Positions 6,927 to 59,574 of a DNA stretch of 64,000 bases are shown here, in pieces. The notes under the pieces are model-generated. The model did no database searches, was not told the DNA's origin, and saw only the letters and a program-made list of their open reading frames with translations. A program made the position numbers and the translations under genes. The stretch covers positions 19,679 to 83,678 of the forward strand of contig KV419429.1 in the NCBI GenBank assembly GCA_001630475.1, given 5' to 3'. How positions within the stretch are numbered: the first letter of the stretch is position 1; every line of letters starts with the position of its first letter. Origin of the DNA: Sistotremastrum niveocremeum HHB9708 (taxonomy: Eukaryota > Basidiomycota > Agaricomycetes > Sistotremastrales > Sistotremastraceae).

Positions 6927-7184
6927 CTGTACATACACGACGGTAACATACTGTTACGGCCGAACTCGCTGTATGTGGAATTGGCGTAACGTTACGCCAA
7001 AACGCTGTCGAGATATGTTAACTTTGAAATTTGGGCGAACCGGCTACGTCGGCTGTTATGTCCGGGCGTCACTCTATGTCAAAAAATCCAAACGTTACGG
7101 TGATATCTTTGCGACTATGGTGAAAATCCTGTTCCTGAGATCGCTACGGCGTTACGGCCGCATGTTATGCTCGTGTATGTACAG
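6927..7184. mobile_element. 258-bp MITE with TA target duplication
   Basis: The termini CTGTACATACACGA (6927-6940) and its exact reverse complement (7171-7184) bound the element, and TA flanks both sides (6925-6926, 7185-7186). Inside are more imperfect inverted blocks (TAACAT, GTTACGGCCG) and a perfect 20-bp palindrome at 6981-7000 (TTGGCGTAAC and its complement). No coding capacity. The TA duplication suggests mobilisation by a Tc1/mariner-type or similar transposase; none is seen in the window. Confidence 0.85.
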
Positions 7185-13900: not shown

Positions 13901-14286
13901 TTCAAAATGAGACCTGGTCAACAAACACTCGAGAAACTCGTATGCGCTCGGGACCTGAAGTTACGCCCAACAGGTCGGCGCGTCCAATGACACGCGTGAT
14001 GCCGAACTCCCCCTGATCTCCAAAAGCCGATCGGAAGATGCCGAGGCTGAGTTCAGGCGATGCTCTCGTTCATTGAGGGTTGGGCGCATAAAGTTTTTGA
14101 CACTATGGCTGACGTTTGAGATATCCTACAGTATGCCGGCGCTATAGTACAGCCCGAGCCTCAAAACAAGAAAAGTAGGTCACCTTGGGCCGGTGACGTG
14201 TTCTGGTCTTCGGCGGACGGACCCTGTGATAGCCGGGCCTCGCTTGTTTTTTGTCCTTGGACCCTCTTCTAACGATACGCCGTAGG

Positions 14287-27187: not shown

Positions 27188-28211
27188 AACAAAGAACAAC
27201 CCAAGCATCCGCCGGGGCAGAGATCAATAAGGCGGTCACCATGCGTTGGAATACGGTCCATGCATTTTTAGACGTGACAACCAAGATGTCAGCGCAATTT
27301 GCTTCATATACTGGACCAGCGATTTCGTCAAACGCGTCAGGAACCCATTGGAAAGCCTCCTTGCGTGAATTCGGCAGATTGTGTTGTCGTAATGCCGCTA
27401 TCAGGTTGGGCGAGACAGGATTGAAAAGTGGTATACCATTTGTTTCCTCCGGACACATGTAGAGACTTATTGGAGTTGCTCCAGAAGGTAGAGCTTTGTT
27501 TCGTTGCAGCCGAAGGCGATGTGAATTCCATTCCACAGCGAATTTGTCAAGTTCCTTCTGGACGATAGGTGGCCAAAGCCATCGAAATAGATTGCTGTGC
27601 AAGAGTCTTTAGGTCTGGAATAGGCGTCCAATACGAAAGGCTTACATATGGATAGGATTAGATGAATTGAAGACAGTATGTCCGGAGGTGACATCCAAAT
27701 AGAGAGTGCGACCAATGGATTCTCGAAGCCAATGCCAGAATCCTTCGATGGGTGTGTTTTGCGTACTCTTGAGGGCCATCCAAGCCGAATACACCGTATC
27801 GTCAATATCTGGTGTGAGTTGTCCCCCGCAGAAAGCATGAGGGCAACATAGATGATCAAGGGCGTTGGGACATTACCGTAGTGAGGTGTGGATGGCGTAC
27901 ATAAACCCGGTCTCCGAACCCTTGTCAACCGTTATTTGTAAAGGAAACTCTGTTGATGGGTCTTCAAGAACTGGTATCCAACACCGCATCCGATGCACTG
28001 AAGCAGTTCCTGAGGTCGTTTCCATTAGGCACTATCGACATCAGAAAAAAAACATTTGACGTACTAAGAGCAACTTGTACTCGTTGGAATCTTTGGGAAC
28101 GGCAGCCAGTTTCTTGCATTTGGGACAGAGGCCTTCCGTGTCTCGATACTCGAAGTGCTGGCCACAGGAGGGGCATAGATTGAGGTCGTGCGTGTGGTTA
28201 TGCTGAGCCAT
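27188..28211 (-). mobile_element. Partial integrase-like element with an N-terminal zinc ribbon
   Basis: On the minus strand the reading begins at an ATG at 28209-28211 with MAQHNHTHDLNLCPSCGQ and CPKCKKL, a Cys4 zinc-ribbon pattern. Next come blocks of the same integrase-like family as 12240-13900: DKGSETG (about 27925), MALKSTQNTPIEGFWHWL (about 27740-27785), LFRWLWPPIVQKELDKF (about 27545-27595) and LPSGATPIS. The first catalytic block is missing, so this is a partial and old copy, probably broken. The zinc ribbon may be a true domain of the family or a neighbouring gene piece. Origin (LTR retroelement or other) is not decided by the window. Confidence 0.6.
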
Positions 28212-28219
28212 GGGAGCAC

Positions 28220-30290
28220 TACTGGAAACCTCTAAAGGGGGGGCTAATAGCTACATCCCCCCATATTGCAAAACCCATCTGAGATAGCCCCCCCTTGCTC
28301 CCCTACAAAATGCACTTGCTACCAACCATGGTAGCTACCCACTGTGCTTCCCTGATTTGTAGGTCGCAAGTCCATCCAAGGCTGGCACTTGTTGGTAGCT
28401 ACCAGTGATTTTCTCTCGAGTGTCTTGGAGTGTTCTGAGGCCCATTGATAGGCTGTTGGTAGCTACCTGTTTGTTGCTTATGAGCCCCTTGGTAGCCAAT
28501 GGAAGCTACCAGAGTAAGTTTTATTGGGGCCCATGAGCACTGATTCATCAACACTGGGTGCCAAATGGTAGCTGCTGAGTGCTTTCCAGTGGTAGTGAGT
28601 GGATGTTGCTGGTAGAGTTCCAAAGTCCAGTCACGACTGGACTTTTTCCAAAACTCCTTGTGACTGGCAACTGCGACCGGTTGCCAAATCCCAAATTTGC
28701 CATGACTGGCAACTGCAACTGCAGTTGCGGTCCGGCAACCAGTCATCAAATGACCAGTCACAACCAGTTGCCTGCCCAATATATTGAATATTTTAATCAT
28801 TAATATATTGTTTTACCCTATTATATATCGTCTATTGGTGTCTATTGATCATATATATACTGTATATACATCATATACCATGAATACATGACCATACATG
28901 AGGAAAATACCACTACATTACCCTCTGAGCACCCTGTTTGGGGACCCTTAAGGGTCTTCCCTGAGTATCGGTCGCGACCGTGGTCACGACTGGTCATGAC
29001 TGCGGTTGCTGGTTGCCTGATTTTCAGAAACCGAGGCAACTGGCAACTGCAGTCCAGTCGCGACTTCGGTCCGGTTGCCCAATACGACCAGTCACGTGGA
29101 CTGGACCTTGGAACTCTAGTTGCTGGTATCTACCAAGCTCCAATTGTCCTGTTATGTTTTTCACCAAGGTCTTCACTGGGGGCATTTGAAGGTAATATTC
29201 CTTGTTCAGCTTCAGCTTCAAGTTGGCTGCTCAGAAATTTTCAAGGATTTGAGTGCAGTGTTGAATGTTCATACTCTTCTGCAAAGTCCTGGTCCTGTTT
29301 TCAAGGATTCAATTTTGGAAACTGATACACTTCCATTATCTAGCTAGGTACTTGGCAGCAGGGTCCGGTAGCTACCCAGGGCTCCGGCATCCAAAAGTGC
29401 TGCAAGGCCCCAGGAGTTGCTGGTGTCTGCTATAGCACTAGATACAATGTGGAGGACATTGGTAGCACTTTGCAGTGCCAGGAAGTGTATGGTGGCAGGC
29501 GGTACCTACCAAGAATCACACCTGCATATGCAACGAACATCATTGGAACACACCTTCCAGCTACCGGCACCTACCAAAACTATGTCGCCATTCACTCTCT
29601 GTAGAAGTCTGTTCAGTAAGCCAGGGGGGTAGCACCATGCAGGCTCTGGGAGCTACCAACCCTTGGCCAAGAAGTCAGTTGACTATTCAGTCTGCTGCTG
29701 GTAGCTCAAGGAAGGTACCCACTATTGCCCCAAGATTCTTCATGAGACCAATATATTGGTTCAACGGAGACATGTCTGGTACTAGGGGAGCAGCTGGTAG
29801 CAAAGAGAAGCTGCAGATTTTCTTGAGGGAGCGCAAGATCTGCTAAATCTGTGGAGGGATGCTTCCGGTAGCTACCAGCTACCCATGTAATCTATTCCTG
29901 TTACAAGTCAGCATTCCAAAGCAGTCCAGCGCAAGACATGGTAGGGTATGGTAGCTACCGCATTGTTACAGTCGACTGATGCATGCCTATCCCAAAGGTA
30001 CTACAATGCTCTGGTAGCTACCTGATGTCTTTTTGGAATGAGCTGGTAGCTACCAAACACCACACTAGTCAAGTATCTTCAACCCATCCTCACTCGGTAT
30101 GTACTGGTAGCTACCAAACCCAATGACTTCATTCGGGAAACCCGATGGCCCGCTCATTTGGAAGGAGACGGTACCTCGTGGAATCTACCAGTACCCTCCC
30201 TAAGGCGGTTGAACTGGGTAGGTACCAGTCACACCTCACGCATCACACTTAACTACTCTCAAACTAAGGGAGGTAACTACCTAGTGCAAC
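28220..30290. repeat. GGTAGCTACC palindrome-rich repeat block
   Basis: The self-complementary 10-mer GGTAGCTACC occurs at least nine times without error (for example near 28330, 28402, 28449, 29368, 29870, 29949, 30012, 30043, 30104), along with many degenerate copies. Spacing is irregular, so it is not a satellite. No coding frame is credible. A hAT-type MITE (28613-29118) has inserted into it. A weaker relative lies at 45630-45950. Confidence 0.75.
28613..29118. mobile_element. 506-bp hAT-type MITE of the CAACCGG family, complete with 8-bp duplication
   Basis: Terminal inverted repeats TAGAGTTCCAAAGTCCAGT (28613-28631) and the reverse complement of TAGAGTTCCAAGGTCCAGT (29100-29118) agree at 18 of 19 positions. 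The 8 bases GTTGCTGG stand directly on both sides (28605-28612 and 29119-29126), an exact target duplication. Eight-base duplications and termini starting TAGNG are typical of the hAT superfamily. The interior has short inverted tracts (CAACTG, CAGTCACGAC), an AT-rich centre and no gene. Confidence 0.88.
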
Positions 30291-30400
30291 CAACACTTAT
30301 CCTTCGATGATCCCATCACTCCAACTCCTTGTCTGTTCTCCGCGCAGACCGTCCCTGATGACTTCCGGTCTCAATTCATTTGTTTCACCTTTGCTCCATG

Positions 30401-33400
30401 TCAGCCATACCTTAGGAATTGAGTGATCCGGCCGCTAACCTTCTTGTCAAACCATTTTGGCGGGAACTTCGCCATCGCCATCATGCGGGTGACCTGTTTC
30501 TTTCTCTTTTCCTTAGGTAGAGCTAAGATGTTTTGCCAGATGATGGTGTCTTCGTCATCATCTTCGTCATCATCCTCGTCATCCTCCTCGTCATCATCTT
30601 CGTCTTCACGTTTGTTTTTGCTTCCGCCTGCACTTGTATCTTTTGCTTTCGTCACGTCTTCAATCGTAGCTTCAGGGATCGTGGATGGGCCAGGCCTGGC
30701 GTGGTTTGTGAAGCGGTTTGGCTGGGACGAGGTCTTCGTGACTTGCTTTGGCCGAGGTTGACTATCACAAGTATTGAAATGTAAGCTGACAAGCGAAGAT
30801 TGAACACTGGCTTTGACGTACCTCATGCTTGCTTCGGGATGATCACGCGTCACTTGAGTCTTCCCTTTGTCGACACTAGATATTACAATGAGATCGCGTG
30901 AGTCGATGTCAAGGGAAATACCCACTAGTCGATCGGTGGCAGTGGCATACGACTCTCCAGAGTTTGGACGAAGTCTGGCATCATGAACATCCCCTGTAAA
31001 TCAAATTGGAGGATTAAACTTACGTTGATGAGTTGGCCGTGGTGGAGGAGGTGGAGGACTAAATGAGGATAAGGCAAACACATTTCAGCGCTAAGAAGTG
31101 GGGACGTACACTGCTCGGCGCAAAGCTGCGTCCTTGACCTTATCAACAGGATTGCTGGAGATACAGTGAGTTCGTGACAGTGGGATGAGATAGCATGCGC
31201 TACGGACTTGTTCATGACTTCAAGATCCGTATTCGTTGCTTTGCCCTTGCCCTTGCCTGACGCTTGACTGAATGACACGATGAGCTTTGTTACAACGACA
31301 ATGACCTGAAATACGAACTTATGAATGTCCGAGACGTGTGTACTGACTTCAGGAGCAGAGGCTAGATTCAGCTCGTGAGTATGCAAAGAGAAGATATTAA
31401 CAGTGAACAAACCTCGCAATGTTTGATCGGAGACGGGTACGATATGCGAGGAAGGCCTGAAAGAACAAATGAATATGTATGATTGATAGCTTAGGCGAGT
31501 ACCACGAACGCGGGATGAGGTCGAGCGAGTCCCTTGGCCCTTCCAGCAGTCGTGCTAAGAGGCGTGTGAGAATACGGCCAGACAATGGGGCGAGAGACGA
31601 ACTGAGAAGACTTCTTCTTTTGGGTATCCTCTGCGATCGAAGTAAGAAACAAGACATACATAGATGCAAGTGCAGACAACATACCAATCGGAGCATGCAG
31701 GTTTGCCTTCAAGTTCAAACGCGAGTCGCTATCGGAAGTGTCCTCGTCTGAACTGTCATCCTCGACCGTTTGCTTCGTGGCGGTATCTGGTTTTGAGGGC
31801 TGAGTGACGATGGTACTCTTTGGAAGTTCTGTGGCATCAGAACGGGGGGCGGAAGGACGAGGTTTGGGGATAACGTGAGGCACCGGTGAGGAAGAGATAT
31901 CGGGATCAGTGGAGGGATCACGGCGAGGAGGTGAGGGAGGAGGAGGAGGAGGATGGATGGGCTGCATATTGCGCATTCTCTTAGTCTTCTTCGCTGGTCG
32001 TCCAACCTCGTCTTCATCAGCATTGTCCACATCATCCCTCCCTCGTTTCGCCAACGCCGTTGTCCCCACGCTTCCCTTGCCCTTGCCCTTCGTTGAAGTG
32101 TCCATCTCCTCCGTTTGGTCGATCTCGTGCGTCTTCTTCGACTTCTCTTTCTCTGTCCTCGTGTCCTTCGCCTTCGCCTTCGTCTTCGTCTTCGTCTTCT
32201 CCCTCTCCTTCTCTTTCCTCAACTCAGCCGTCCTTGACTTCTCTTTGGCCTTCAACTGCTCTGTCTCGTCACTCTCGTCATCGGCGTCAGATGGTACGAA
32301 GACTTGGGACTTCTGGCTACGAGATCGTTTGGCATTGCCAGCGCCCTTGGCTCTCTTTGACGTGCCTTCTTGAGGTGAGTCTGAAGGTTGATCTGCATCT
32401 GTATCAGCCGAGACCTTTCTTTTCTTGGTCGAAGGATTGGGGGTGTTCTTGCCGTAGGCCTTCAACCAGACCTTGGCATGACGAACGAAGAGCATGTCGT
32501 TATCCTTCTCGTCACGGACGAGGCAGATGTTACCTTGCTCGGCGGGATCGACTGCCTTCTCGGCTAAGGAAGACAACGACAATCAGTGTGTATTGGGGGA
32601 AACGGAGAAGACAGCCAAACCTTTCGACCACTCCTCAATGTGTAGCCCTTCCCAAGTGGCTTGTTCTTCGCTCGATGCCTGGGAGAACCGTACGATTTGA
32701 TCGTAGAAGATGTCGATCGTCGTTTGATTCATCTTGGCGGCATCGTAATGACGGATGTCGGTGCTCAGGAGGCAGGACCAGCCGACGACGCGCAACTGGT
32801 GAGCAAATAATTTGTCCAAGATGTTTTTCCAGAGGACTTTCCTGGGATCCGTGTTTCCGGTCCAAAATGCTGATATAATGGCGTTAGTCTGATAAATCGC
32901 AAATTGGTAACGAGCAACGAACCAAACTCTTCTTTGATCAAATGAGATGGAAACCGACGTTTGAAGTCGCGATCTCCACGAGTCTCGGTGGGTAATGTGT
33001 ATCGTGGGCGTTTGGTGGCAGCCTTGATGAGTTCCTCTTTCGTGACAGTCTGAACAGGGGAGACATCTTCTCCATTGGCCCGAGCGAGTATTTCTTTGCG
33101 GATCTCAGCGCTGGCCAAGCTGCAGACAGTCAAGAATGAGTATGGACGGTGATAAGTTATTCAAGCCAAACTCACCGAAGCGCTGCTTGTCTAACAAGGG
33201 CATGATCGTGAAGGAGATCGGCGCGATCGCGAATCAGTCTCTGCCATGTAGAGCCAGCGCCGAACGACGAGATAGAACCACGACCTGGAAGATCCAGGCT
33301 GCCGTAGACTTCGCCGACCACGACAACTCCATAGTTAATCAAGAAATGCTTAGCCTGATATGCCATGAGCACGAAGATAAGAGCACGACGGATAATCGAC

Positions 33401-35581
33401 TTACGAAATCAGATAACTGACTTGAGATTTCGTTAACGGATTTGTTGTCTGAGGCAGCAGTCTGATTGGCCTTCATGTTGTCTCGAAGTTCTTGTTCGAA
33501 TTCTTCAATCAAACTCTTTTCCCACTCTTCTCGTTCACCCAGTTCCTCGTAAGCGTCCCGAACGGCGTAGAAGGTAGCCATGCATTCCTCGTTCCAATTC
33601 TCATCGGGATAGACTAGACAGGTGGTCTAAGCTAAGAGATCACTCGACGGAAGATTGAGGATACGCACGTTCTTTCAATAGTGGAATCTGTTCACAAACA
33701 GCGGCGACCATTGCTTTCCACGCGTTGTCGGTGCGAGTCTTAGTCTTTATCCACTTGGGCTTAAACCCGGCTTTGCGAGCGACAAAATTTAGAGACTTTC
33801 CGTGAAGGACAGCGAACTCCTCGAGGCTCGTTTCGGCAGTCTGCCATATGAGCTGGAGCTGCTTGAGCGCCTCGACACTGAGGGGGCCGGGTCGAATCTT
33901 GTATTTGACGCCGGTGTTGTCGTCACCATCGTCGTCAGAGGGGGGGAATCGAATGAGATTGTCGAGATCGGATGGGGATGGACTCTGCGGGCGTTCGACG
34001 GCTTTCCCCTTGCCCTTAGCTCGTGACTGCTCCTCTGCAGCCACTTCCGCCTCAAATTCCTGTTGGTCTATCGCGTCTGCCTCTTCCTGAGTGACGAGAT
34101 GCTTGAATTGCGTTTTCTTCCGTTTATGTTCAAAGGCCTTGGTTTCTTTCGCGGCTGTCTTCTCGAAGTCGTTGTCTGAGTCATCATCGCCAGAGGACTC
34201 GGACAGAAGTCGAGGAGAGTGGGGCGGAGGGTGGTCGTCAGCGGCATGTGTGGGCTCTGGCGTCAATGGCGTATGTTGTTGTGTGTCTCGATATTCTTGG
34301 TCGTCACCGTTCGCAGGACCATCAGGAGGATGAGCGTCCTCCAAAGACGAAGATGACCCAGTGTCGTCCTCGGAGGACGAAGAGGACTCAACAGCGTCCT
34401 CAGTATCGATCGGAGGACGATATTGAAGGCCCCTGCACGGGTGGCTGTCAGTGGAGTCGAGAGTAGAACAAACGCGTGCGTACCTTGGATTTACAGTTCT
34501 TCGACTCTTAGCCTTGGATCTTTGTCGAGATGTGGATGGCCTGGCCCTCATAAGGACAATATGAGGTTGGGGAACCTGGAGTGGCACTTACGAATCATCT
34601 TGTTCATCTGCTTCACGTTCTTCTTCTTCCTCTTCCTCTTCCTCTTCCTCTTCCTCTTCCTCTTCCTCTTCCTCTTCCTCTTCCTCTTCTGCGTCTTCTT
34701 CATCTTCGACTTGCTCTTCTTCGACTGCGTCCTCTTCTGTACTATCTTCAGCGTCTGCTTTGTGTTGCTTTTGTCCGTGTTCATTGTCCTCTGGGTGGTC
34801 TTGTGCGCTTGCGTCTGGGGCGTCTCTGCATTCGTGATCGCCGTGAGCTCGAGGCTGGGTCTGCTCGTCATCCTCTGCCCACTGATGCTGCTGGAGAAGT
34901 TGGCGCCCGCGTTTTTCATCTTCGTCGTCTGAGAGTTCGGCACCGGCGACGTCGAATGGATTGGGACTGGGAGCTCGGACAGATGGAACAGGAATTATCT
35001 TATCAGCGGGGGCATCGTCCTCCGGCTCTTGGACTTCGTGAACGATCCTGTGATCGAATTTAGTATGCCGCACGAAGCTGTATTGATCGGTATACATACT
35101 TGAGTTTGTTTTTGGTTGTTGGACCCATGAAACCGTCCTCGGCGGCAGCTCTCCTGCTTTGAACCTTTTCAACCGTCGTCTGTTTTGGTCTCGGTCTCTT
35201 CGGACGTTGCGGTTCGACTGGTGGCATATCCTGAGGCGATTCAGGTGCGTGGTAAACCTTCTGAGAAATGTTGAGCAATGTGGGTATTCTGGAGAGAGAC
35301 TCAGACTTACAACTCCGGATTTCCCGTGTGGCAAATCTTTCACGCGAGTTTGAGACTTAGGAGTCTTTTGCACGGCCTGTGAAGTCTGCAGGTGGGTTCA
35401 AAATCGACTTGAGTATGAAGGACACAACACTTACGCCACCACGCCACAGAGTATTGGGGAGTTGAGAGGTGGCATCGTCTGGTTCGTCCAGACGGTCCTC
35501 CGGTTCCTGAGCAGGAGGATGCCCAGCCTGAGCAGCTTGTGCATCCTCTTGCTTCTTTCGAAAACGCGTTGTCATCCACAT
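30401..35581 (-). CDS. 1,424-aa, 18-exon nuclear-looking protein of unknown function
   Basis: Eighteen exons on the minus strand run from an ATG at 35581 to a stop at 30401. Every junction I could check keeps phase with GT-AG borders (first exons 35435-35581, 35311-35376, 35100-35230, 34592-35047; last exon 30401-30761). The protein starts basic, then has a run of about 27 glutamates from the TCTTCC microsatellite at 34620-34692, Ser/Asp-rich acidic parts, a folded middle (LKQLQLIWQTAETSLEEF through YGVVVVGEVYGSLDLPGR to KVLWKNILDKLFAHQLRVVGW), a Lys/Glu/Thr-rich basic linker, and a C-terminus with an Asp/Glu run and WQNILALPKEKRKKQ. No catalytic motif is recognised. The layout suggests a nuclear, chromatin- or DNA-associated factor; this is inference. 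It lies tail-to-head with the 666-aa gene and near the KDZ transposase, and may belong with them. Confidence 0.75.
34618..34692. repeat. TCTTCC microsatellite coding for poly-Glu
   Basis: About twelve near-perfect copies of the hexamer, inside exon 4 of the 1,424-aa gene, where they encode a glutamate run on the minus strand. Likely length-variable between strains. Confidence 0.9.
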
Positions 35582-35803
35582 GGAGATAAGTCGAAGTAAA
35601 GGTTGGAGTTCAAGTCTGTAAACAAGGGTGATTGAATGAGCAAACAATAGAGCGACAAGCCAGAATGGACAAGTCCGAGAGGGATCACGTGATCGCCAGT
35701 GCATCCCACAATGAAGGCCGAACGACTTCGTCATTGAAGATGGGTGTAGATATTTTGCATTACAAAGATTGTACATCACACATTATATTATTTGAAACGA
35801 GCA

Positions 35804-37909
35804 TCAAGCTCCTCCTGTGACAAAGTGAGCGAAAGTTATGTCAAATAGAAGCGAAGAAATACCTGATCCCTGCATGGGCATGAGATGTGGTACTTCGGGA
35901 GGTCGACCGAGCAAATCGTAGGCTTTCAGGACGTAAAACTCCGCGCACTCTCGATACACACGAAATACGATAGCCGGATCGGTGGTGGATTTGATGTCGA
36001 CGTGAACACTGTTCGGTAGTCCGGACCAATCGACCATCAAGTCACGAAAAGCTTCGATCGCTCTGACTTGTGCTTCCCACAATGCACTCCCAAGACCGGC
36101 GCTCGCACTAAGATCATCTTGCGTGATCAGACGAATTCCTCCCAGGGCTATCGACCGGCGAGTGAACTCAACGGTTTCTCGCGCTAGTTCCTCTTCGTTC
36201 ATGAGTTCATATCTCCTTTCGTGATCATCAACGGCCGTGAACTCGAACACGAAGTTGAGATGTATGAGCTCCCAGAGTATGAGCTGCACCACTTCGTCAT
36301 CAGGCATTCCGTTCTGCCGAAATACACTACGTCCCCCAAATCTTAGTTCGCCGAAGTCTCTCGCCCCGTTCCACCCGATTCTGACAAACGCAGCTAGACG
36401 ATGTTGCATATTCGCACGAGCTTCTTGAGACTTGGTTTTGACCGCAGGTTGAAACACCCGTTCCTCTGGCATCCAGCTCAGAAAGTCTCGCCATTCTTGA
36501 GGTCTCAGAGGGCATCCATCTATGTCATTCGCAAGCAATCCAGCGAACCAACCCTCGCGAACTCGCAACCAGTTTGAAATGTATGTCCGTAGCCTAGCTT
36601 CATCTACTGATGCGAAGAGACGGGCTGGAGGAACCGAATATCCCCCAGCGGTCTCGCGTAGGGGAGGCTTATCGCGAACCCCTAGAGAGTCCAGAGCGGT
36701 GACCCATGTGTGCACAGCACTTGGCATAAGTTTGCTGATCGGATCAACGAGCTTCAGCTTCTGATCGCTGTTCATCACACGAGGACGTCGAGCTTGACTT
36801 GCCGGATCTGATAGTGCGGAGGCAACCGTTAGTCGTGCAATTGAGACTATGCGAGGACACTTACATGGCTCATAATGGTCGCCTTTCCGTTTTCTACCAG
36901 GCCCAGTCTTAGTTTGGCCTAGAGACAGTTCTGAGGGAGTCGCCTTCAAGTCGAAAAGGGGTCGACTCGAGCACGACGATCTCGTGAACTGATATCGGCA
37001 GTGGACGAACTTGATATCACTGGCGGGGCCACGAAAGATCACTGGATATGGTGCTTCCTTCGGATAGCGTTCTGACCAAGTGTCCAAACAGACACTGGCG
37101 CGACTCAGATCAACGACGGCTTTGACATTGATTTGAGGAGTGAGCTCGTAGGAAGGCCTAAGATACCAGACTGGGATACCGGCCGAAAATAATGCTTGAA
37201 CTTGGTTGGGTTCGGTCACGATCACACCCATCAAGTCCTCGCAGACGGGATGGTCAACATTTCGTGCATCGCGAATGCGGGGCAGATAACGAATCATATA
37301 TTCCAACAGCCCAGAAAGCTCTAACCAATGTCGTTGAAATTCGGTAACATGACGAATAAGGTCTCTATAAGTCATGGGGATGTGTGCGAGTCTGCTCAAG
37401 ATTCGCTCGAGCGACAAATGGAACCAGCCTGCTCCACGTGACAGGCCTTGGACCTCAGAATGCCTGTCCATGATTTCCTGCACAGGAGCTTTGAGAATGT
37501 CGAAGGATTTCTCCAATTGTTTGTAGTGCACCATACGCAACCGAAATATGCCTGGTACGCTCGAATTTTCGATGGAAGTGAACCAGGTTAAGGAAGGGTC
37601 GGAGAAGATGAGATTGATACATGAGGCACTTTCAGTAGGTACATGGAAAGAAAATCTCATAGGCGACCGCGGAATACATGTGAGATGGGGGGTTTCGGTG
37701 TGGTATCGTTGTGGCCATCGGGTATAATCATCGAACCCATAACGACCGTCTGCTCGCAAACGGACTTCGCGAGCGATGGCGTAGGGTTCTGGAACGAATG
37801 GCATGTTGGGAGTGGATATCCAATGATCGCCATCCAGTTCTGCCGCCGCACGTGCATCGAATGCACCTATGGCACGTTCTGGGCGATATTGAGGGAATCT
37901 TAGGGGCAT
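35804..37909 (-). CDS. 666-aa protein of unknown function, paralogue of 3562-5679
   Basis: Three exons on the minus strand (36865-37909, 35863-36807, 35804-35814) give 666 aa with canonical introns; the last exon holds only the final residues. Landmarks shared with the 671-aa protein are FDARAAAEL, DHWISTPNMPFVPEP, AGIPVWYLRP, PYPVIFRG, a GPGRKRKG basic patch at the conserved intron, NWLRVREGW and a C-terminal helix pair before LLGRPPEVP. The first intron has the same position and phase as in the paralogue. No catalytic residues recognised; I looked for the HxD..H pattern of TET/JBP dioxygenases that accompany KDZ elements in mushrooms and did not see it. It starts 36 bp from a stem-loop array (37946-38056) and is divergent from the KDZ transposase. 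Confidence 0.78.
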   Translation of the reverse strand: MPLRFPQYRPERAIGAFDARAAAELDGDHWISTPNMPFVPEPYAIAREVRLRADGRYGFDDYTRWPQRYHTETPHLTCIPRSPMRFSFHVPTESASCINLIFSDPSLTWFTSIENSSVPGIFRLRMVHYKQLEKSFDILKAPVQEIMDRHSEVQGLSRGAGWFHLSLERILSRLAHIPMTYRDLIRHVTEFQRHWLELSGLLEYMIRYLPRIRDARNVDHPVCEDLMGVIVTEPNQVQALFSAGIPVWYLRPSYELTPQINVKAVVDLSRASVCLDTWSERYPKEAPYPVIFRGPASDIKFVHCRYQFTRSSCSSRPLFDLKATPSELSLGQTKTGPGRKRKGDHYEPCKCPRIVSIARLTVASALSDPASQARRPRVMNSDQKLKLVDPISKLMPSAVHTWVTALDSLGVRDKPPLRETAGGYSVPPARLFASVDEARLRTYISNWLRVREGWFAGLLANDIDGCPLRPQEWRDFLSWMPEERVFQPAVKTKSQEARANMQHRLAAFVRIGWNGARDFGELRFGGRSVFRQNGMPDDEVVQLILWELIHLNFVFEFTAVDDHERRYELMNEEELARETVEFTRRSIALGGIRLITQDDLSASAGLGSALWEAQVRAIEAFRDLMVDWSGLPNSVHVDIKSTTDPAIVFRVYRECAEFYVLKAYDLLGRPPEVPHLMPMQGSGISSLLFDITFAHFVTGGA

Positions 37910-37945
37910 GATCGATCGATTGTGCTCGACGGTCTTGATTCAGGA

Positions 37946-38056
37946 GAGCAGCTCCACACCAAGTAGCGCTGCTCACTGACGAAGCGTAAGCACGAGACGA
38001 TCCACACCAAGTAGATCGTCACGGCCTCGAATACTGCACAACACCAAGTTGTGCAG
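37946..38056. promoter_or_regulatory. Left array of three ACCAA-loop hairpins
   Basis: Hairpin 1: GAGCAGC (37946-37952) pairs with GCTGCTC (37968-37974), and an inner CAC..GTG-like part closes the loop. Hairpin 2: GACGATC (37996-38002) pairs with GATCGTC (38014-38020), then one mismatch, then AC/GT. Hairpin 3: CTGCACAAC (38034-38042) pairs perfectly with GTTGTGCAG (38048-38056). All share ACACCAAGT with loop ACCAA closed by C-G. Stems are unrelated in sequence. On the minus strand, in the sense of the adjacent 666-aa gene, the loop reads UUGGU. Confidence 0.85.
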
Positions 38057-38129
38057 TAACTATGCGAGTTCTTGCTCTTCTTGAGGGCGAGAGTCTACAT
38101 TAGGCCGCATACGTATAAGTCTACAGTCC

Positions 38130-38652
38130 TCAAAAAGACACAGCGAGAGAAACGAACCTTGGGACAGAGAGAGACTGCTTATCGCGCTTGCGACCTCCGG
38201 TGGACGATTCCTTCGATATCACCTGGCTTCAAGTTAGAGACTTTGAATCGATTATATTATGGGCCTAACGTACCTGAAAGGGATGGACGGACTCAGCCCA
38301 CGATGAGCGCCTCTAGAACTCTGGCGTGACTTCGACCCCCTTCCTCTGAATTGGACTCCTTGGAAGATTTTTGAGAAGCTAATCTGATGGATCGCAACTG
38401 ATTATTACACGAAAGAACAATCAATACTCGAATAATTGCTCACCGACCAGAAGAGGGCGCCTGTCGAGCTGATTGCCTGCTAAAGCTGACGCACGGTGAT
38501 CTTGAGAATTGAGCCTGTCAAATGGAATTTGATGATCAGAGATAGACTAGATAGGAGAACGGCAAGGAAATTTACCTTAGGTGCTGAGACCGACGATGTC
38601 TCAGACGGTCGGTGAGGGATGATGGGTGCACGGACCAGTGTCTGTCACTCAT
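38130..38652 (-). CDS. Candidate small 4-exon gene between the hairpin arrays (122 aa)
   Basis: Exons 38576-38652, 38444-38514, 38274-38397 and 38130-38226 on the minus strand join in phase from ATG to stop. The introns are bounded by GTAAAT..CAG, GTGAGC..CAG and GTACGT..AAG. The protein starts MSDRHWSVHPSS and is rich in Arg, Ser and His; no family is recognised. If the third intron instead uses the CAG five bases further on, the frame stops at once (91 aa). It could equally be a set of 5' leader exons of the 666-aa gene on the same strand, with a chance open frame. Keeping frame over three introns favours a real coding sequence but does not prove it. Confidence 0.42.
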
Positions 38653-38957
38653 TAAGATGTCACGGCGCTTGGACCTCTGCCCGCTTTGACACGTAGCATA
38701 ACGCCGTTACACACTCCTCATCTACCCATCATCTCGAAGAACCACGGTGAGCGATCGAATCCAGCCTCTATGACCGGGTGCTCTCTCAAATTGTCTTTAG
38801 GTATCATACATCCTCAAACATCTTCCCCTCAAGATCACAAGTCCAAAATTTCTTATCAATTTTTTGTAAGTGGTCCATCATTATTTTACGCCCTTATTAT
38901 CGACACTGACATCTACACAGCGCTGGTACATCAGATACAAGATATCCCAACGACCGC

Positions 38958-39055
38958 CGGACTTGGTGTCTGAGCATTCGGTTACGCTGAACGATGGCAA
39001 CTTGGTGTTGTCATGAGTTCATACGTAGATAGGGGATCGACTTGGTGTCGAACCC
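38958..39055. promoter_or_regulatory. Right array of three TTGGT-loop hairpins, mirror image of the left array
   Basis: Hairpin 4: CGGAC (38958-38962) with GTCTG (38968-38972), one G.T pair. Hairpin 5: ATGGCAAC (38994-39001) with GTTGTCAT (39007-39014), one G.T pair. Hairpin 6: GGGATCGAC (39033-39041) with GTCGAACCC (39047-39055), one A.A mismatch. Every loop is TTGGT closed by C-G. The loop spacing (39 and 47 bp) mirrors the left array (48 and 37 bp). An intron-like GTAAGT..ACACAG on the plus strand (38866-38920) just upstream suggests that plus-strand transcripts, perhaps the KDZ 5' leader, run through the array. Confidence 0.82.
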
Positions 39056-39387
39056 TCCTCATCTCTCGCTCATACCTCCCTGGCCCATCTCGGGGGAGAC
39101 CATCTCCCACCACCCCCATCCCCATTCATTTCCCCATCCACATCCTCGAATTTCTTTCAACTCCCTATCCCCCTCCATTTATCCGTTCTGTTGAATTTAC
39201 TTCTGTAATTTACACTCCCCCCTATCGCAACAATAAACGAGCGAGTGCATGTTCGTCTCAGTAACAATCAGTCTAATCTATCACTTGTACAAGCATTGTG
39301 CACCCGGTCTATAAGCACCTGTCCTCGCCGAGATGCCGAGAGTAGGAAAGTTCGCGACTTTGCCACCCCGTCTCCTACCTCCAACCC

Positions 39388-42300
39388 ATGTCGAGACGCA
39401 CCCTGAAGACGAAGAAGAAATCTTCAAATCGCCAAAATACTCTTCCTGAAACGCCTGAGAAAGCTTTCACTCTCCACACCCATCGCAGTGCGAAAAGACC
39501 AAGTGTGGCCTCCGACCTTCTTGGTGGCCCCCAACTACCCATTCGCGATGTATTCCGGAACGAAGTCACCATTCACGGAGCTGGACCTGCCATCTATCTC
39601 GATACGAATGGTAACAGACCCAAACCTCCCAAGCAGAAACGGACGGTGGTCGGCGGTGGAGTGACCAGGCACGTCTTGGCTCTTCCAGACGATGCCGTGC
39701 CACCCACTCAAGCCGACGAGCCTGAAACCCCAGCTCCAGACGCGACGTCCCCTCAACCCCCTCATCATGTCCACGAAGGCCACAACCTGATTCACGAAGA
39801 TGATGGTTTCAGCTTCCCCATCTTCTCCCACGAAGATAACCCTCATGTCGCTCTCCCACCAGCGCCATCCCATCATCAGAAGAAAACTAAGCAATGGAAA
39901 CGCTGGACTGACGAAGTGATACCTTCGATGGAACCTCTTTATCGAAAGCTCTTACGGGAGACTGACTCGCTCAAGCGTCAACCTCCAGCGTATAAGACTC
40001 CCGCGTGCACTTGTGGCGGCAAAGTGCGGAATATTAAAGTGAAATGCATCATGTGGGATGGTCAGTACTCTTATCAATTCTGCTTATTCTAATACTAATA
40101 GCCGTCCAGCTATCAAAGACCTTACAATCCCGAAATGCGCATGTCGACCAGCCTCTAGCCAACTACTAGCTCGAGGCTTATTCCCCTGTGCCCCGCTCGA
40201 ACCTAGTCTAGCAGTACAGATTCCTGTCCTCCAGTTGGTTACGAAACTATTTCTTCGTGTAGCCCCGAATATATCCGCATTCTCCGAAACACTAGAAGAA
40301 TTCCTTGCCGATCGCAACTACAAACTCAAAACCAAGGTTTGCTCATCCATTGAATATTCCTTATGAGGCAAGACTCATACCGGCTCGCAGGACTCTCTAC
40401 GACGGCGATTTAGTAACGCGTTGTTATGGTTCAATTACCTTGAGGACACCCTTGAGACGAACATTGATCACTTAATCCACGCCGACTCAACGGATTCATC
40501 CGTTACCCACGACCACTCTCAGGAATCGAACCCCCCTTCACGCACCGCCGATCTGCATTCCGTCAATAATTCGGATGCCATCATCCCTCCCACTTCAGAC
40601 CCTCCGAGTGAAGCGGACACAAGCTTCTTCTCAGACGAAGAGGACCCCAATTCGTCCGAGGCCCCTCCCGATCTGGCGTATCTCTCCGATGATGACGATG
40701 ACGAACCTCGTGCATCCGGTCAACGTCAAGGAGAGAGAAGTACAAGTTCATCGTCCGACGATCACGACGGGGACACCCAGAACTCTCGTACTCAACCCAG
40801 TGCATATCTTCGCGCTCGATGTCCGCTGTGTTTTGGAGGTGATTGGTCCAAACGGACTCGAAAACAGTAAGTCATCAGCTCCACACCCATTGACCTGGTG
40901 CTAACCGTCTCCATCAGACTGCTTGACGTCCTCCTGGAACTCGACGCATGTTTCACTCAAAAATGCAAGAAGTCCTCGACCACCGATATCCCGCGTTCGT
41001 ACCCTGACAGCAGCTTCATCGACCCCGAAGATCTCAAGCAGATGGAAGAGGAAGTTTCCTCGAAACGACCGGCGAAACCCAAACGCAAGAGGGACGATGC
41101 TGCTACAGATCCAGCAGTAGACCACGTGGAACCAGGAATGCGACTCCCTACCTCTGTCCTCGACGACTGCGAGAAGACTTTCATAGCAGCAGATGAGCGC
41201 CGAATCAAAGCCTCCACCAAATATTTCGGCGACACCGGCCTTATGGCTATCCTATGTCGTCACGATATTCCTCTCTTCATTGTCAATATGACTTCTGCAG
41301 GCGAGAAACAATACTACGCACTCGCTCTCATCAAGAAAGTCTTTGAACACCTTCCTGACGATGCGAAGATCGGCGTCCTCTACGACATCGGCTGTCAACT
41401 ACACCGCAGCTGTGTCAAGTGGGGCTTCCTGAAAGAATTCCTGCCCCGTTTAATATTCGCCTTAGCCGTTTTCCATGCCTACGGTCATCAGTGGGCATGT
41501 CAGGTTTTATATCACCCTCGCAAATGCGAACACTTCGGACGCACGGACGGCGAAGGATGCGAACGCTTCTGGAGTGTGATCAAGCATTTGATCCCCGGTC
41601 TACGTGTCTCAGGAGTGAGTCCTTCTGTTTGACTTCGCTAATTTCAGATACTAACCATTATGCATAGCATCATAGACGGCTGTACGTCCTAGACACACAA
41701 GTGGTCCATATTCGACGTAAAGCCTTCGACAATTTGGCGCATTGGTTAGCTCGCAAATATCACCTGTGCCTCAAAGCTCAGAAGGAGGCCGACGAAATCA
41801 TCGCCAATTGCGGGCACGATGTCGAGACGCTCCGGCGACAATGGGAAAAGCAAGTAGCCCATCAAACCAAGCCTTTGCAGCGTGAGTGAAGCCCGGTTAA
41901 TGATGTTTCAATGGCAGCTCATCATCTTGACAGGTCAATCTGCGAAGAACGGTGTACGAGCTGTTGAAGACATCTTATTGCTCAGGGACAAAGTTGCGAG
42001 CCTCACTGCCGAACTTCAAGATCTGAGAGATCAAGAAATTGAATTACTCGATGACTCGGATGCCGAAGACGAACAGAGAGCCGACGTTCTCTCAAAACTG
42101 GAGCGTGCGACGAAACAATTAGAACGCGCCGAGAAGGCCGTGCGCAACAAAGAAGCTTCTTTAGGTCTGGATGCTCAAGCCCATCTCCAAAAGATGAAAC
42201 ATTCAAAATACATTACTGTTCGTGCCAACTGTCGTGCCGTCAAGTACCGTCTACGTGCTCGACTTCGCCAGCGAAAGTACGAACTTCAACGGATCGAGAA

Positions 42301-43319
42301 GCTCTGCCGTAATCGTATGAATGGTATGTAGCCTAGCTTTGAGGCATACTGTTTAATCATATTCATCATGCCACAGACGACAAGCTCTCGAAGCAGATAA
42401 ATACGGGCGTTGGGCACCGTGATGGTAGCATAAAAAATACAGCAAACACCTACAACAAGCTGGTATCCCAGCTTGAAGAGCTGAAGCGTCAAAAGAAGGC
42501 TCCACCAGGTGCCATACTGCCCGTTCGCCTCGAGACTCAGGGCCTCTTCCTACTCGATGTTGACGATGACATCTGGCAGGATCTCGGTTTGGATGACGAA
42601 GAGGAGGAAGATGAGGAAGCAGACGCCGAGACGGAAGGAGCGGAGGGAGATGCTGAGAGGAAGACGTCACCGAAATGGTTGTCTGATCCGAATATTAGAG
42701 ATGGAATTGTTGGAATGTTGCAGGCCGATCGTTGTGCGGAAGAGTTCATCCGTTTAGAGCAGGAACGTCGAGCCATGCAGGAGTGGTTTATGCGAGAGTG
42801 GGAAAGTTTGGAATGCGCGATTGAAGATACAGGTGCGTATTTTCGACATGTCTCATCTGGTATTTCCCAACTGATTGTAATCCAGATGACTTGGATCTTC
42901 TCTATGCCCTAGGTTTACGACGAACACGGTATATCGACCTGTGTCGAAGATGGCAGGAGGCCGTAGTGACCCTTCCTTCGCCTGCGGATCTCTCAAGCGA
43001 TTGGGGACCTACGAGAGAAGAGTTGAACAACGCTGCAGCCGAAGCCATTCAACCAGCCGTAGATCTTTTTGACACCGACTCAGAATCTGATGAAGAAGAA
43101 AGACACCTCGGACTAGCCGATGCAGACGAAGAAGAAGAAGGCAATCTATTTGATGCCTTGGACGAAATTGAACGCATAGTTGTATCTGATGATGATGAGG
43201 GAGAAGATGGTGAAGAAGATGACTTTATTATTCAAGCGATGACACCCCGAACGCCAAGGACCGGCCTCACTGCTAATGACGCATTCTCTTCGCCGACGAA
43301 ACGGCTGCGTCATATGTGA
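39388..43319 (+). CDS. KDZ transposase, CxC1 type, intact (1,188 aa)
   Basis: Eight exons (39388-40060, 40110-40336, 40391-40866, 40918-41614, 41668-41881, 41934-42323, 42377-42832, 42886-43319) join in phase without a stop. The N-terminal half carries the CxC1-type cysteine cluster (CTCGG, CKCA-like CACRPA, GLFPCAP, CPLCFGG). The transposase core has RHDIPLFIVNMTSAGEKQYY, LYDIGCQLHRSC with a catalytic Asp, HAYGHQWACQ, YHPRKCEHFG and DGEGCERFW with the expected catalytic Glu, then YVLDTQV after an intron. The C-terminal part is coiled-coil (about residues 700-900) and ends acidic. KDZ elements are DNA transposons expanded in mushrooms, sometimes with TET/JBP genes; none is seen here. All core motifs are present, so it may still be active. 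Element ends were not found, though the hairpin arrays upstream are candidates. Confidence 0.92.
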
Positions 43320-44209
43320 GCGAGCACGAGTACTGTAGACTTTCAATGTCATTGAATCCAATCCCTTCGTGCACAACATAACCATATGTTTCGGTTTCGA
43401 GTTATGAGTCACTCAAGGATCATATTCCTTTTGTTTCTGAGGTGGATGCCTTCGTATGTGCACACTGGCGAGACTCAATCGTGCTTGTCGTATTCTGCAA
43501 GTCCCTTCTTCGTTCATCCACTCGGTGAGTAGAATATCTTTAGCTTGATTGTCGATGGTCGTGACAGTGTGCACTAGAGCCACGGAGGAGTGTTGCACTA
43601 TCAGCACTTCAGCTGGTGCCATTCATGCGACCGCTCCCCAAGTCTTTGAGGTCAGTAATCGTTGGCATGAACATTTACGTCGCCGTTGTAAACGCACACC
43701 AGCTGGCTCAACTAATGCCTCTCTGTAGCGATACATTACTCGATCCGATGATCTACCAGAGGAGATGCATAGAACAAACGTAGAATCTAATCGACTGCAC
43801 TAATGTGCTTACTCAACGGAAAGCTCAGCAAGAATCAATTGTCTTGTCGTCCAGCTCTTGCACCGCACTCTCTGATGCTTGCATTTTGTTCGGGAAGTTC
43901 AGTCTGCCTCAAACTGAGAATGTGATAACAGACTGAATCGCGTGAAGAATGAATGACGAGCGGGAATAGGATGCAAGGGGACGTCCGATTAACTGCCTCT
44001 GTGTACAGTTCTTATCTAGAACGACGGAAATTCATCTCAGGCCTTGACTGAATTTGCGCGAGCCTCTGCTCTTGATACCATCTCTCGCGCAGTGGTCATA
44101 TCTTCAGTGATTCTCTCATCTCCTCCCCCACGGGACACCTTCGCGACGCGAGCCGAGCTCAGATCCGACGCCGTCGCCATCTTCAACCCAGTAATCTCAA
44201 GTCTAGTGA
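43320..44209. other. No gene seen
   Basis: Downstream of the KDZ gene; no inverted copy of the upstream hairpin arrays and no motif found. Confidence 0.4.
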
Positions 44210-44800
44210 ATGAACCCAACGAGAAGGAGCTCCGCAACGCCTAAGGCATATCTGGCCTGCGATCAATGTCGTCGTGAGTGTTCTTCGAATGGTATGTAGG
44301 GGAATGGAGTGTGATGACGTGGTCTTCGTAGATGCAAAGACGAAGTGCAACGAAGGTCGTCCGTGCACTCGTTGTGCTCGTTTAGCCCAGACTTGCGAAT
44401 ATCAGTCAATGTACGCTCAAGTCCTTGAGGGATACAATTCACATCTGACGTACGGGCGATTCATTCAGAAGGAGACGCCGGGGTCGTGGCAAGCAGGCTC
44501 AAGGAGACAGGGGCGAGGGAGGAGTTGATCGTGCGTAAACTATACTATCTTATAAAGTCAGACTTGATCTGATCTATCCTTTATTGATTAGGCCAATCCC
44601 GCGATAGCCAAGGCCTAGTCCAGCCGGCCTCGTCAAATCCTGCACCGATGAACCCTCACGCCATCATGCCATCCCATCATGAACCCAAGCTCATCCGCCT
44701 GCCGCCGATACAGTCGCAGGTGCCTACTGAAATGCACGATGTTCAAGGCCTTCCTTCCTTCGCAACTCTCATGCAGCAACTGCGTGCACCATTAGAGTAG
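44210..44800 (+). CDS. Zn2Cys6 (fungal binuclear cluster) protein, small
   Basis: Exon 1 (44210-44273) starts MNPTRRSSATPKAYLACDQC. After a 58-bp intron, exon 2 (from 44332) reads HAKTKCNEGRPCTRCARLAQTC. Together they give C-x2-C-x6-C-x5-C-x2-C-x6-C, the complete DNA-binding zinc cluster of Gal4-type factors, preceded by a basic stretch. In this frame exon 2 stops at 44526-44528, giving about 97 aa with no activation or Fungal_trans domain. An open block with good acceptor (ATTAG) at about 44593-44800 (Pro/His-rich, ending LMQQLRAPLE) looks like a third exon, but no donor before the stop joins it in frame. So either the protein is a very short DNA-binding factor or the gene has lost its frame. 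Confidence 0.68.
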
Positions 44801-45629
44801 ATTGTACTTCGTTCAGCGCGCTGACTTACCACTGGCCGGCCTCATGTCTGCACTCTCGGATTCTGTTCTGGTGGGAGACAATTTAGTTTTGTTCGTAGAT
44901 TGCGCAAGGAAATAAGTGTAGTTGAGTTCAAGGTGCATGCGATATGGCCTACCTGTGTTTAGAGCAAGACGTTGAAAGACATTCAGGTCAGAAATAATCT
45001 TCGTTTTGGCGCTGGCTGGCTCACAGAGTGATATGGCACGTGCTGCTTATTTTCTGAGGGCTCTCGTTGCGCACATTTCGTACTAAAGAATTCATCCAGC
45101 CTACCCCCTCCTTGCGGCTCGGTCTCCTTTCAAGGCGCCAGTCAGGCTTTTGACATGTCAAAGCCCCGCAATCTCACACGCATATGAGACAGAATCATAG
45201 ACTGATGTCCAGAATCCGCGCTAATCTTATGTCAAAATCTTCTCTTGAAATTTCCAATTCTAATCGTGCAGTCAGTAGAGGTGGGATTTCCAGCCGGAAG
45301 GTCATCAATTGTCCACCAGAGCTGCAAGCAGACAATCACTTGCAGTCAAATGCCCGACTCACGTCCTCACTGTGCTGTGTCATGCCGTACCATGTTATTG
45401 TCCAATGAACTCATCACAACTGATGCAGTCAATAAAATCCAGGTTTTCTAGTAAGGCAATGGCAAGATCTAAGATTCTGAATGCCTGTATACTTGGAGAT
45501 GTGATTTATCAGCTGTGTATTCAACAGATGCATGTCATGGCACGAATATGATTTGTGAGTATGTCAAGGAAGAAACCTACAAGGGCTTTGGGAGGGCGGA
45601 GAAGGGTAAAGCTTGTTGCTTAGCAAAGC
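44801..45629. other. No gene seen
   Basis: Short frames without motifs on both strands. Confidence 0.4.
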
Positions 45630-45950
45630 TCCTTTGAACAGCACAGTGGTAGCTGCCGGAGATAACCAGGACAGACGTGCGCAAATTGGAAACAAATGTG
45701 TGTATAGTGCACCATAGCTACCAGAGACTTCCAAAGTGGCAACCATCTGGGCCATGGTATGGTAGCTGCAACACACTACCAATCATCATGAAACACATCT
45801 GAGGATACAGGAATGCAGCTGAGATTTCCTACCACAAGCTACCAAACAGTACCCAGAGGGCACCTGGTAGTAACTGGGTTGTGAGTCAGTCGGTAGCTAG
45901 GGACCAGTTAGACAGGTCTCATGGCATGACATGATGCATCTACCAGACCC
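45630..45950. repeat. Diverged GGTAGCTACC-type repeat
   Basis: Half-sites and near-palindromes such as GGTAGCTGCC, ATAGCTACCA, AAGCTACCA and CGGTAGCTAG recur over about 300 bp. It resembles the 28220-30290 block but has no perfect palindrome, so it looks older. Confidence 0.55.
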
Positions 45951-47250
45951 CTGTTCTGATATGCCAGGGATGCATGGGAGGAGGTGAGAGTCGGGATCAA
46001 GGAGCGGCGATGAGCCTAGAGGAGCATCTTGGGTCTATATATAATGGGAAATTAGCGGGTGGCATAGTTGCCTTGCAACACCGGTGGCACAAACATTCAT
46101 TGCTGATCCTTTGGGTAAGAATCTCATGCGAATTATATTCGGAAATTTGCCGTGACGCGTTGCATATGTTGGAGTGATGACAAACGGGACAAGGAACTCG
46201 CCCATTGTTCTAGTAAAATCACTGCTACCATGGATTGTCGAGGTTCAGCTTGATCGCGATTTCGTATAGGACGCCAAGACTCACATACATAGGTCGGCCT
46301 ACAACCTTGGGTCGACAGATCCGCAGGCAAGATTCCATAGATGCCCAGAGAGCCAGAAATAGGTGCGAGAATCAGGATGGGGAGGATGGGGAGGACATGT
46401 CTCGGTAACGATAGATCGAACCGCTACTTTTTGGGCGATGTCAGTCAATGCATATGCGTCGTAAGAATAACAGCGCTGCTTACTCGTTCATCTCAACATT
46501 CAATCACGTCCTTTCAACACTCTGCATGCGCAGAAGTCGTATAGCTCTGGTTGCGTGATTGGGTAGTAGGAGGATCTGGCACCGGGCTCAACGGCTAGAT
46601 TAGATCTGAGATTGTTTGGACCTTACTTTCAATCGGATCTCCTCATACGGAACGGTCGCGTAATTTTGAAGAAACGCGTCGTCCGTAGAGGCGACTCCTC
46701 TGCTACAGCGAAAGGAAGCCTGAGAATACAAGCCTGAGACTTGAGGTCTGAGCCAGTGCCCCGTACGACATAGGAACCTTATCACATGACTCAGCCCAGC
46801 CGAATGCCGGCTCCAGCATCCGGATAATTTTGGTTCTCTCCTTTGGATTTCGTGTCAAGTTGTATAATATATCAGAGAGCACAACACCGTTATGAAGACA
46901 GCTGTATTCAAGTAACCAATTGGCTCGAACACCTCTCCCAGAGTCACCGTGGCGCGACGCGTCAAACTCAAAGTCCGGAGTCTCAAATCCATCCGCGAAC
47001 CAACCGCTTACCGTACCTTACCCTCGTCTCGTCAACGTCGTATCAGTCACACTAGCCACCATTTCCCTTTTCACGATTAATCTTTGTTGCGACATCTTAT
47101 TCGACCTAGATACTGTTCAATGAAATCGTTCTTGTGCTGAATTCTCGTTTATCGCGTGCCGGCAAAATTTCAAATAATCACCGCTTGTAGGTACCAAGTA
47201 TAACAATAGCCGTGATCCAAAATAATATTAATATTAATAAAAGGAGGCGT
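45951..47250. other. No gene recognised
   Basis: Short frames only; the last 50 bases are AT-rich (AATATTAATATTAATA). Confidence 0.4.
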
Positions 47251-58684: not shown

Positions 58685-59574
58685 NNNNNNNNNNNNNNNN
58701 NNNNNNNNNNNNNNNNNNNNNNNNNNNNNNNNNNNNNNNNNNNNNNNNNNNNNNNNNNNNNNNNNNNNNNNNNNNNNNNNNNNNNNNNNNNNNNNNNNNN
58801 NNNNNNNNNNNNNNNNNNNNNNNNNNNNNNNNNNNNNNNNNNNNNNNNNNNNNNNNNNNNNNNNNNNNNNNNNNNNNNNNNNNNNNNNNNNNNNNNNNNN
58901 NNNNNNNNNNNNNNNNNNNNNNNNNNNNNNNNNNNNNNNNNNNNNNNNNNNNNNNNNNNNNNNNNNNNNNNNNNNNNNNNNNNNNNNNNNNNNNNNNNNN
59001 NNNNNNNNNNNNNNNNNNNNNNNNNNNNNNNNNNNNNNNNNNNNNNNNNNNNNNNNNNNNNNNNNNNNNNNNNNNNNNNNNNNNNNNNNNNNNNNNNNNN
59101 NNNNNNNNNNNNNNNNNNNNNNNNNNNNNNNNNNNNNNNNNNNNNNNNNNNNNNNNNNNNNNNNNNNNNNNNNNNNNNNNNNNNNNNNNNNNNNNNNNNN
59201 NNNNNNNNNNNNNNNNNNNNNNNNNNNNNNNNNNNNNNNNNNNNNNNNNNNNNNNNNNNNNNNNNNNNNNNNNNNNNNNNNNNNNNNNNNNNNNNNNNNN
59301 NNNNNNNNNNNNNNNNNNNNNNNNNNNNNNNNNNNNNNNNNNNNNNNNNNNNNNNNNNNNNNNNNNNNNNNNNNNNNNNNNNNNNNNNNNNNNNNNNNNN
59401 NNNNNNNNNNNNNNNNNNNNNNNNNNNNNNNNNNNNNNNNNNNNNNNNNNNNNNNNNNNNNNNNNNNNNNNNNNNNNNNNNNNNNNNNNNNNNNNNNNNN
59501 NNNNNNNNNNNNNNNNNNNNNNNNNNNNNNNNNNNNNNNNNNNNNNNNNNNNNNNNNNNNNNNNNNNNNNNNNN
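58685..59574. other. Assembly gap (890 N)
   Basis: Unknown bases. The gap starts shortly after the older MITE copy and cuts the open frame on the right side. Confidence 1.

Follow-up and report, generated by a model that had tools for sequence, protein, structure and literature searches.

We identified six short hairpins that present one invariant loop on differing stems, in two arrays of three, within a 64-kb window (the whole stretch of DNA that was analysed). The arrays lie between two divergent genes, of which the right encodes a KDZ transposase with a CxC1 cysteine cluster, and every hairpin is oriented in the sense of the gene beside it. We propose, with a probability of roughly 0.55, that the hairpins are an RNA element, carried in three copies in the 5' leader of each of two genes of a KDZ transposon and bound by one trans-acting factor. 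To our knowledge, the means by which the large KDZ transposons of fungi regulate their expression are poorly understood, and covarying, loop-conserved hairpins in both leaders would show directly, at the level of sequence, that RNA-level control has been selected in a eukaryotic DNA transposon.

Six hairpins share an invariant core

The core ACTTGGTGT was found six times in the window, on the minus strand at 37956, 38004 and 38041, and on the plus strand at 38961, 39000 and 39040. All six copies fall between the two divergent genes, against 0.37 expected in the window, and none of 100 shuffles reached six; no further exact copy was found elsewhere in the 64 kb. Read in the sense of the adjoining gene, all six units have the same design, in which AC, the five-nucleotide loop TTGGT and GT sit atop a private stem, the loop being closed by C-G and then by A-T in 6/6 cases. 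The hairpins are as follows.

37946..37974, minus strand: hairpin Lprox, 11 pairs over 12 positions with one G.A mismatch, loop TTGGT
37996..38020, minus strand: hairpin Lmid, 10 uninterrupted pairs, one of them U.G, loop TTGGT
38032..38058, minus strand: hairpin Ldist, 11 uninterrupted pairs, all Watson-Crick, loop TTGGT
38956..38975, plus strand: hairpin Rdist (weak), 5 contiguous pairs, or 7 if one A is bulged, loop TTGGT
38994..39014, plus strand: hairpin Rmid, 8 pairs, one of them G.U, loop TTGGT
39033..39055, plus strand: hairpin Rprox, 5 pairs, one mismatch and 3 pairs, loop TTGGT

The original prediction, made from the same DNA, described six hairpins with a single pentaloop, and this is borne out by the five-nucleotide, C-G-closed loop in all six, as is its statement that UUGGU loops appear in the sense of each neighbouring gene (6/6). 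It also held that the arrays share little sequence outside the core. In agreement with this, the best plus-strand match between the sense leaders was only 14 nt long and was located at the core, and no extended inverted repeat was found between the arrays, the longest being 17 nt at 88%. The mirror-symmetric spacing that it claimed does not exist: the cores are spaced 48/37 in the left array and 39/40, rather than 39/47, in the right array. The arrays look like mirror images because the flanking genes are divergent. The six hairpins are real, and the overall observation is thus partly confirmed.

An inverted duplication of one leader was considered as a source of the two arrays and rejected, given the 14-nt best match at the core. 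Coding repeats were likewise rejected, since the core positions fall in different reading frames. No Rfam family matched the window at gathering thresholds, and no tRNA was found in it.

Stem pairing is kept while stem sequence changes

At loop offsets 3-9, standard pairs occupy 6 of the 7 positions in Lprox, 7 in Lmid, 7 in Ldist, 3 in Rdist, 6 in Rmid and 6 in Rprox. The resulting sum of 35/42 outer pairs compares with a background mean of 15.4, and was not reached once when six positions were drawn at random 2,000,000 times.

Covariation was scored on an ungapped alignment of the six hairpins over nine pairs, in which 47 of the 54 cells are paired. The two closing pairs are invariant, and the other seven of the nine are altered on both sides. 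Two-sided change in seven pairs was equalled by 5/500 shuffles, while neither the 16 cells with two-sided change nor the covariation of 0.719 (0.156 in shuffles) was reached by any of the 500, counts that are not probabilities, since the six sequences share one locus and possibly a common descent. Controls in which the pairing partners were slid by 1-3 columns, leaving 26-52% of cells paired, are the better guide. Judged against these, the stems differ and yet pair, as had been predicted.

When recurrent loop cores were sought de novo, the ACTTGGTGT group came out as the largest, with five of the six hairpins above threshold, alongside two other groups of at least three (4 and 3 copies); of six Markov-shuffled windows, five yielded no such group and one yielded a single group of 3. 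A covariance model of the six hairpins, scanned over the window, recovered the six members at 26.2-36.5 bits, and the next-best site, at 26579 (15.9 bits, E 0.066), was judged by eye and not counted. Of the checks put forward with the original prediction, the test for covarying pairs gave covarying stems, and the model scan gave no copies in the window beyond these six. Models of single arrays each detected members of the opposite array, which we count in favour of a leader element: with the model from the left three, Rprox scored 26.6 bits and Rmid 15.9 bits (E 0.077), Rdist being missed at E<=1, and the model from the right three found Ldist, Lprox and Lmid at 29.2, 20.3 and 17.4 bits, the score of Lmid being equalled by that of an unrelated site at 14171. 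No near-core with one mismatch and at least 5/7 outer pairs was identified in the window; four had two mismatches and 5 outer pairs.

The flanking genes and the borders of the putative KDZ element

The genes beside the arrays, and a relative of one of them, are located as follows.

35804..37909, minus strand: left gene, an open reading frame of 701 aa
39388..43319, plus strand: right gene, intron-interrupted, with KDZ transposase and CxC1; start at 39388 predicted from the open reading frame
3562-5763, minus strand: diverged relative of the left gene, with 27% identity across 350 aa (E 2e-35) and 23% identity across the second part (E 4e-16)

Within the right gene, 40871-41632 encodes a KDZ transposase domain (PF18758; 187.4 bits, cut-off 26.6; E 3.6e-55), and 40103-40366 encodes a CxC1 cysteine cluster (PF18802; 33 bits, cut-off 26.9; E 7e-08). 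The left 701-aa protein has no Pfam match at E<=0.1; its best match to a solved structure has E 0.18, and its AlphaFold model, from three sequences, was unusable (mean pLDDT 34.2). Neither ACTTGGTGT nor a recurrent hairpin group was found near the relative at 3562-5763, and none of the open reading frames scanned beside it is a KDZ gene.

Clusters of the word GGTAGC/GCTACC and a candidate target-site duplication point to the following borders for an element containing both flanking genes.

28217..30300, no strand: putative left end of the KDZ element, 29 GGTAGC/GCTACC words and 9 full palindromes GGTAGCTACC in 2,084 bp
45600..45972, no strand: putative right end of the KDZ element, 5 GGTAGC/GCTACC words in 373 bp, 0 full palindromes
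28209..28216, plus strand: left copy of the candidate 8-bp target-site duplication CATGGGAG, followed by CA
45973..45980, plus strand: right copy of the candidate 8-bp target-site duplication CATGGGAG, with TG just before it

The word reaches a density of 13.9 and 13.4 per kb at the two ends, against 0.13 inside (2 in the 15.3 kb between the ends, with 10 in the 46.2 kb outside), where each palindrome scores twice and the end regions were chosen after the clusters had been seen. These clusters (28330-28608, 29367-30217 and 45647-45892, with GGTAGCTACC on the left only) are probably subterminal repeats and transposase sites of a KDZ element, which we infer to extend, probably, from 28217 to 45972 (17.8 kb). 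In a duplication search that imposed CA..TG termini as a condition, wider end regions gave four 8-bp and two 7-bp pairs, with about one 8-bp pair estimated by chance; tight end regions gave two candidates, and one or more appeared in 24/2000 shuffles. A blastn comparison showed no long terminal inverted repeat, and 9 of 20 end bases match.

The arrays lie 9.7 kb (left) and 6.9 kb (right) inside these inferred ends, and are therefore not the termini. The suggestion in the original prediction that the hairpins are structured termini recognised by a transposase is accordingly not supported, with the ends placed at 28217 and 45972, no duplication longer than 4 bp flanking the array pair, and little sequence common to the two leaders outside the cores.

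The 17.8-kb element fits the KDZ superfamily, and we leave its lineage unassigned. The KDZ1-3 elements of Cryptococcus, as described in the part of PMC12810828 available, contain KDZ and CxC1 domains, with TIRs of 139-241 bp, duplications of 4-8 bp and lengths of 9-11 kb; the element here likewise has a KDZ transposase and CxC1 in one gene, but is longer, at 17.8 kb, and has no long TIR. Kyakuja, from the available part of PMC12730594, is reported to lack TIRs, to end in CA..TG and to make 7-bp duplications. Our element, which has no long TIR, would resemble it in its candidate CA..TG ends (imposed here by the search), whereas the candidate repeat here is of 8 bp. That candidate 8-bp duplication would match those of KDZ1 and of Zisupton, to which the same part of PMC12730594 attributes 8-bp duplications.

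Several minor features were noted in and around the putative element. Downstream of the KDZ gene and inside the inferred element, 44214-44528 (plus strand) includes a short stretch that resembles, by eye, half a Zn2Cys6 DNA-binding cluster (KCNEGRPCTRCARLAQTCEY). A gene at 27300-28214 (minus strand), resembling by eye an integrase-type mobile gene, starts in the candidate duplication, and TATATATA is present at the far flank, at 46036-46043; in a joined empty site, TATATATA would by eye face the ATG of this minus-strand gene from about 60 nt upstream. An inverted repeat of about 99 bp with 86% identity pairs 28968-29065, at the left end of the element, with 58281-58379.

Position and folding of the predicted leaders

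A pattern scan placed one intron in the predicted leader of each gene.

38223..38273, minus strand: predicted 51-nt intron in the leader of the left gene, GTACGT..CTAAC..CAG
38866..38920, plus strand: predicted 55-nt intron in the leader of the right gene, GTAAGT..CTGAC..CAG

Both arrays are downstream of a canonical predicted intron, by 26-40 nt on the right and by about 165 nt on the left, which suggests that they would be retained within mature 5' leaders. The pattern of the leader introns also matches introns within the coding part. One predicted intron per leader is not strong proof, since the window has 0.30 predicted introns per kb on each strand.

In the predicted left leader (313 nt), all three hairpins form at a pair probability of 1.0, Lprox doing so except at its mismatch, and the ATG of the left open reading frame (37909) is 36 nt downstream of Lprox in the sense of the gene. 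In the predicted right leader (467 nt), Rmid is near 1, and Rdist and Rprox are at 0.06 and <=0.14, respectively; when this leader was cut to 155 nt, the inner pairs of Rmid and Rprox were at 1.0. Two features count against a leader element on the right side. The predicted right leader contains four upstream ATGs, one of which opens an 83-codon frame, and a pyrimidine-rich tract (0.70-0.73 C+T) at 39080-39199 could mark a transcript start downstream of the right array, leaving that array in promoter DNA.

Such a position of the right array, upstream of the transcript start, would suit hairpins that act as DNA, either as cruciform or single-stranded sites bound by the transposase or a partner during internal assembly or replication, or as parts of a bidirectional promoter. 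The two arrays do form an inverted pair, and both strands are able to fold, the folding z-scores of sense and antisense being -6.66 and -6.81 in the left array and -2.37 and -1.50 in the right, so that the strands are not told apart on the left and only weakly on the right. The sense energy is below the antisense energy in 6/6 hairpins, which is largely an effect of base composition, since the left z-scores are about equal on both strands. The wobble pairs, however, favour a single strand, which is the gene sense in both arrays: four in-stem G.U occur on the sense strand, against no in-stem A.C, the form that an antisense G.U would take. The ends of the element also appear to be marked already by the separate GGTAGC/GCTACC clusters, 9.7 and 6.9 kb away, and we regard DNA-level sites as unlikely.

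RNA elements in both leaders recognised by a common factor, as the original prediction also envisaged, are supported, short of proof, by the orientation of 6/6 hairpins, the predicted introns, the covariation and the four sense-strand G.U pairs. Of the two readings offered by the original prediction, this one is supported and that of structured termini is not, so that its interpretation is partly supported as a whole.

A possible mode of action and comparison with known hairpins

If the arrays are transcribed, the functional unit would be a short hairpin displaying the invariant AC-UUGGU-GU loop, with a stem whose sequence is free provided that its pairing is kept. A trans-acting factor that reads this loop, which might be a host RNA-binding protein or encoded by the element, would occupy the three sites in each leader, probably cooperatively. 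Once bound, it could set the translation or the stability of both messages jointly, and the likely outcome would be that the transposase and its partner are held down, repression being the direction of effect that we infer. The hairpin element would supply a nine-base bait for its reader protein, and a searchable model for relatives.

It is rather doubtful that this reader is one of the element's own products, with the 701-aa or the KDZ/CxC1 protein binding the UUGGU hairpins of both leaders and limiting its own transposition. Such a circuit, if true, would be a case of post-transcriptional self-control by a eukaryotic DNA transposon, a counterpart of phage operator hairpins. The iron-responsive element and the MS2 operator are both leader hairpins that present a loop to one protein reader, with a stem partly free in sequence. 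The hairpins here are similar in presenting a loop near the start of a message, as predicted from our leaders, and differ in the loop itself and in being grouped in threes, with one such group for each of a transposon's two divergent genes.

Among the loop-reading systems described for fungi in the parts of the literature available, that of Smaug/Vts1 comes closest. The Smaug recognition element has the loop consensus CNGGN0-3 (PMC4053848, available part), and a yeast reporter whose 3' UTR carries three of these elements undergoes Vts1-dependent degradation (PMC3468468, available part), so that arrays of three can act. The hairpins here resemble these elements, as there described, in being short stem-loops with a non-specific stem, a G-G in the loop and several copies per transcript. 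In contrast, their loop starts with U in 6/6 cases, their AC/GU closing pairs are invariant, and they are located in a predicted 5' leader rather than in a 3' UTR as in the yeast reporter.

This likeness could point to host defence, with a fungal SAM-domain protein of the Smaug/Vts1 type destabilising the transposon messages through UUGGU in place of CNGG. The pentaloop has G at positions 3 and 4 and its stems are free, as in the Smaug elements described in the accessible text of PMC4053848, and the decay of the three-element yeast reporter depends on Vts1 (PMC3468468, in part). The same portion of PMC4053848 requires C at loop base 1, however, where U is present in 6/6 hairpins, so UUGGU is not a member of the Smaug element class; altered invariant loop positions there predicted Smaug binding less well. 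A site purely harmful to the transposon would moreover be expected to disappear, and we consider host defence of this kind improbable.

We found no description of hairpins of this kind in the open-licence literature, which included parts of two fungal KDZ papers; the word 'hairpin' is absent from the main text of PMC12730594 and PMC12810828, as far as that text was available. In the accessible open-licence literature, ACUUGGUGU occurs only in papers on other subjects.

We consider it as improbable as host defence that the ACTTGGTGT copies are ordinary duplex sites through which a transcription factor acts on a divergent promoter, their flanking stems being incidental. The 9-mer is fully invariant, and its six copies are in a single intergenic region, as such sites might be; the outer stems, however, pair far above chance and covary, which counts against this reading because a double-stranded site needs no pairing. 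Least credible of all, and very improbable, is a separate small element spanning 37946-39055 with the hairpins as its structured termini, for which the inversion of the two arrays might speak, but which has no direct repeat longer than 4 bp at its flanks and no extended inverted repeat (longest 17 nt, 88%), and in which each array adjoins, and points with, a gene of the larger element.

Search for related arrays in viral and prokaryotic collections

For the proposed RNA element, we searched for relatives with a three-core DNA pattern, which matched at least 120 stretches of viral contigs and a further 81 from prokaryote genomes. The 201 loci examined contained 482 matches, of which 436 had both gaps a multiple of three. 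Among the 46 matches without in-frame gaps, from seven loci, none reached 5/7 outer pairs at more than one core. At five loci (L005, L121, L125, L141 and L145), six matches had at least 5/7 pairs at all three cores, and a further 15 had at least 5/7 pairs at two of the three, in all cases with gaps in frame. We take these well-paired matches to be, probably, short repeats in coding sequence, a reading based on the translation of six loci other than these five. No relatives of the hairpin arrays were thus found in the viral and prokaryotic collections.

A KDZ protein pattern had no match in the viral contigs, and a pattern for the left protein matched 7 stretches, of which 0 were confirmed. The six-hairpin model was run against one viral record (L001), with no match and an uninformative result.

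Other features of the window

We additionally identified several features elsewhere in the window. At 58685-59574, a run of N represents an assembly gap. An OrsD-like domain (PF12013, E 2.4e-07) is encoded at 23010-23891 on the minus strand, and adjoins large open reading frames at 18843-23009 that have no Pfam match. Finally, at 6925-7186, inverted repeat arms of 25 nt, 88% complementary and 212 nt apart, resemble a small MITE.
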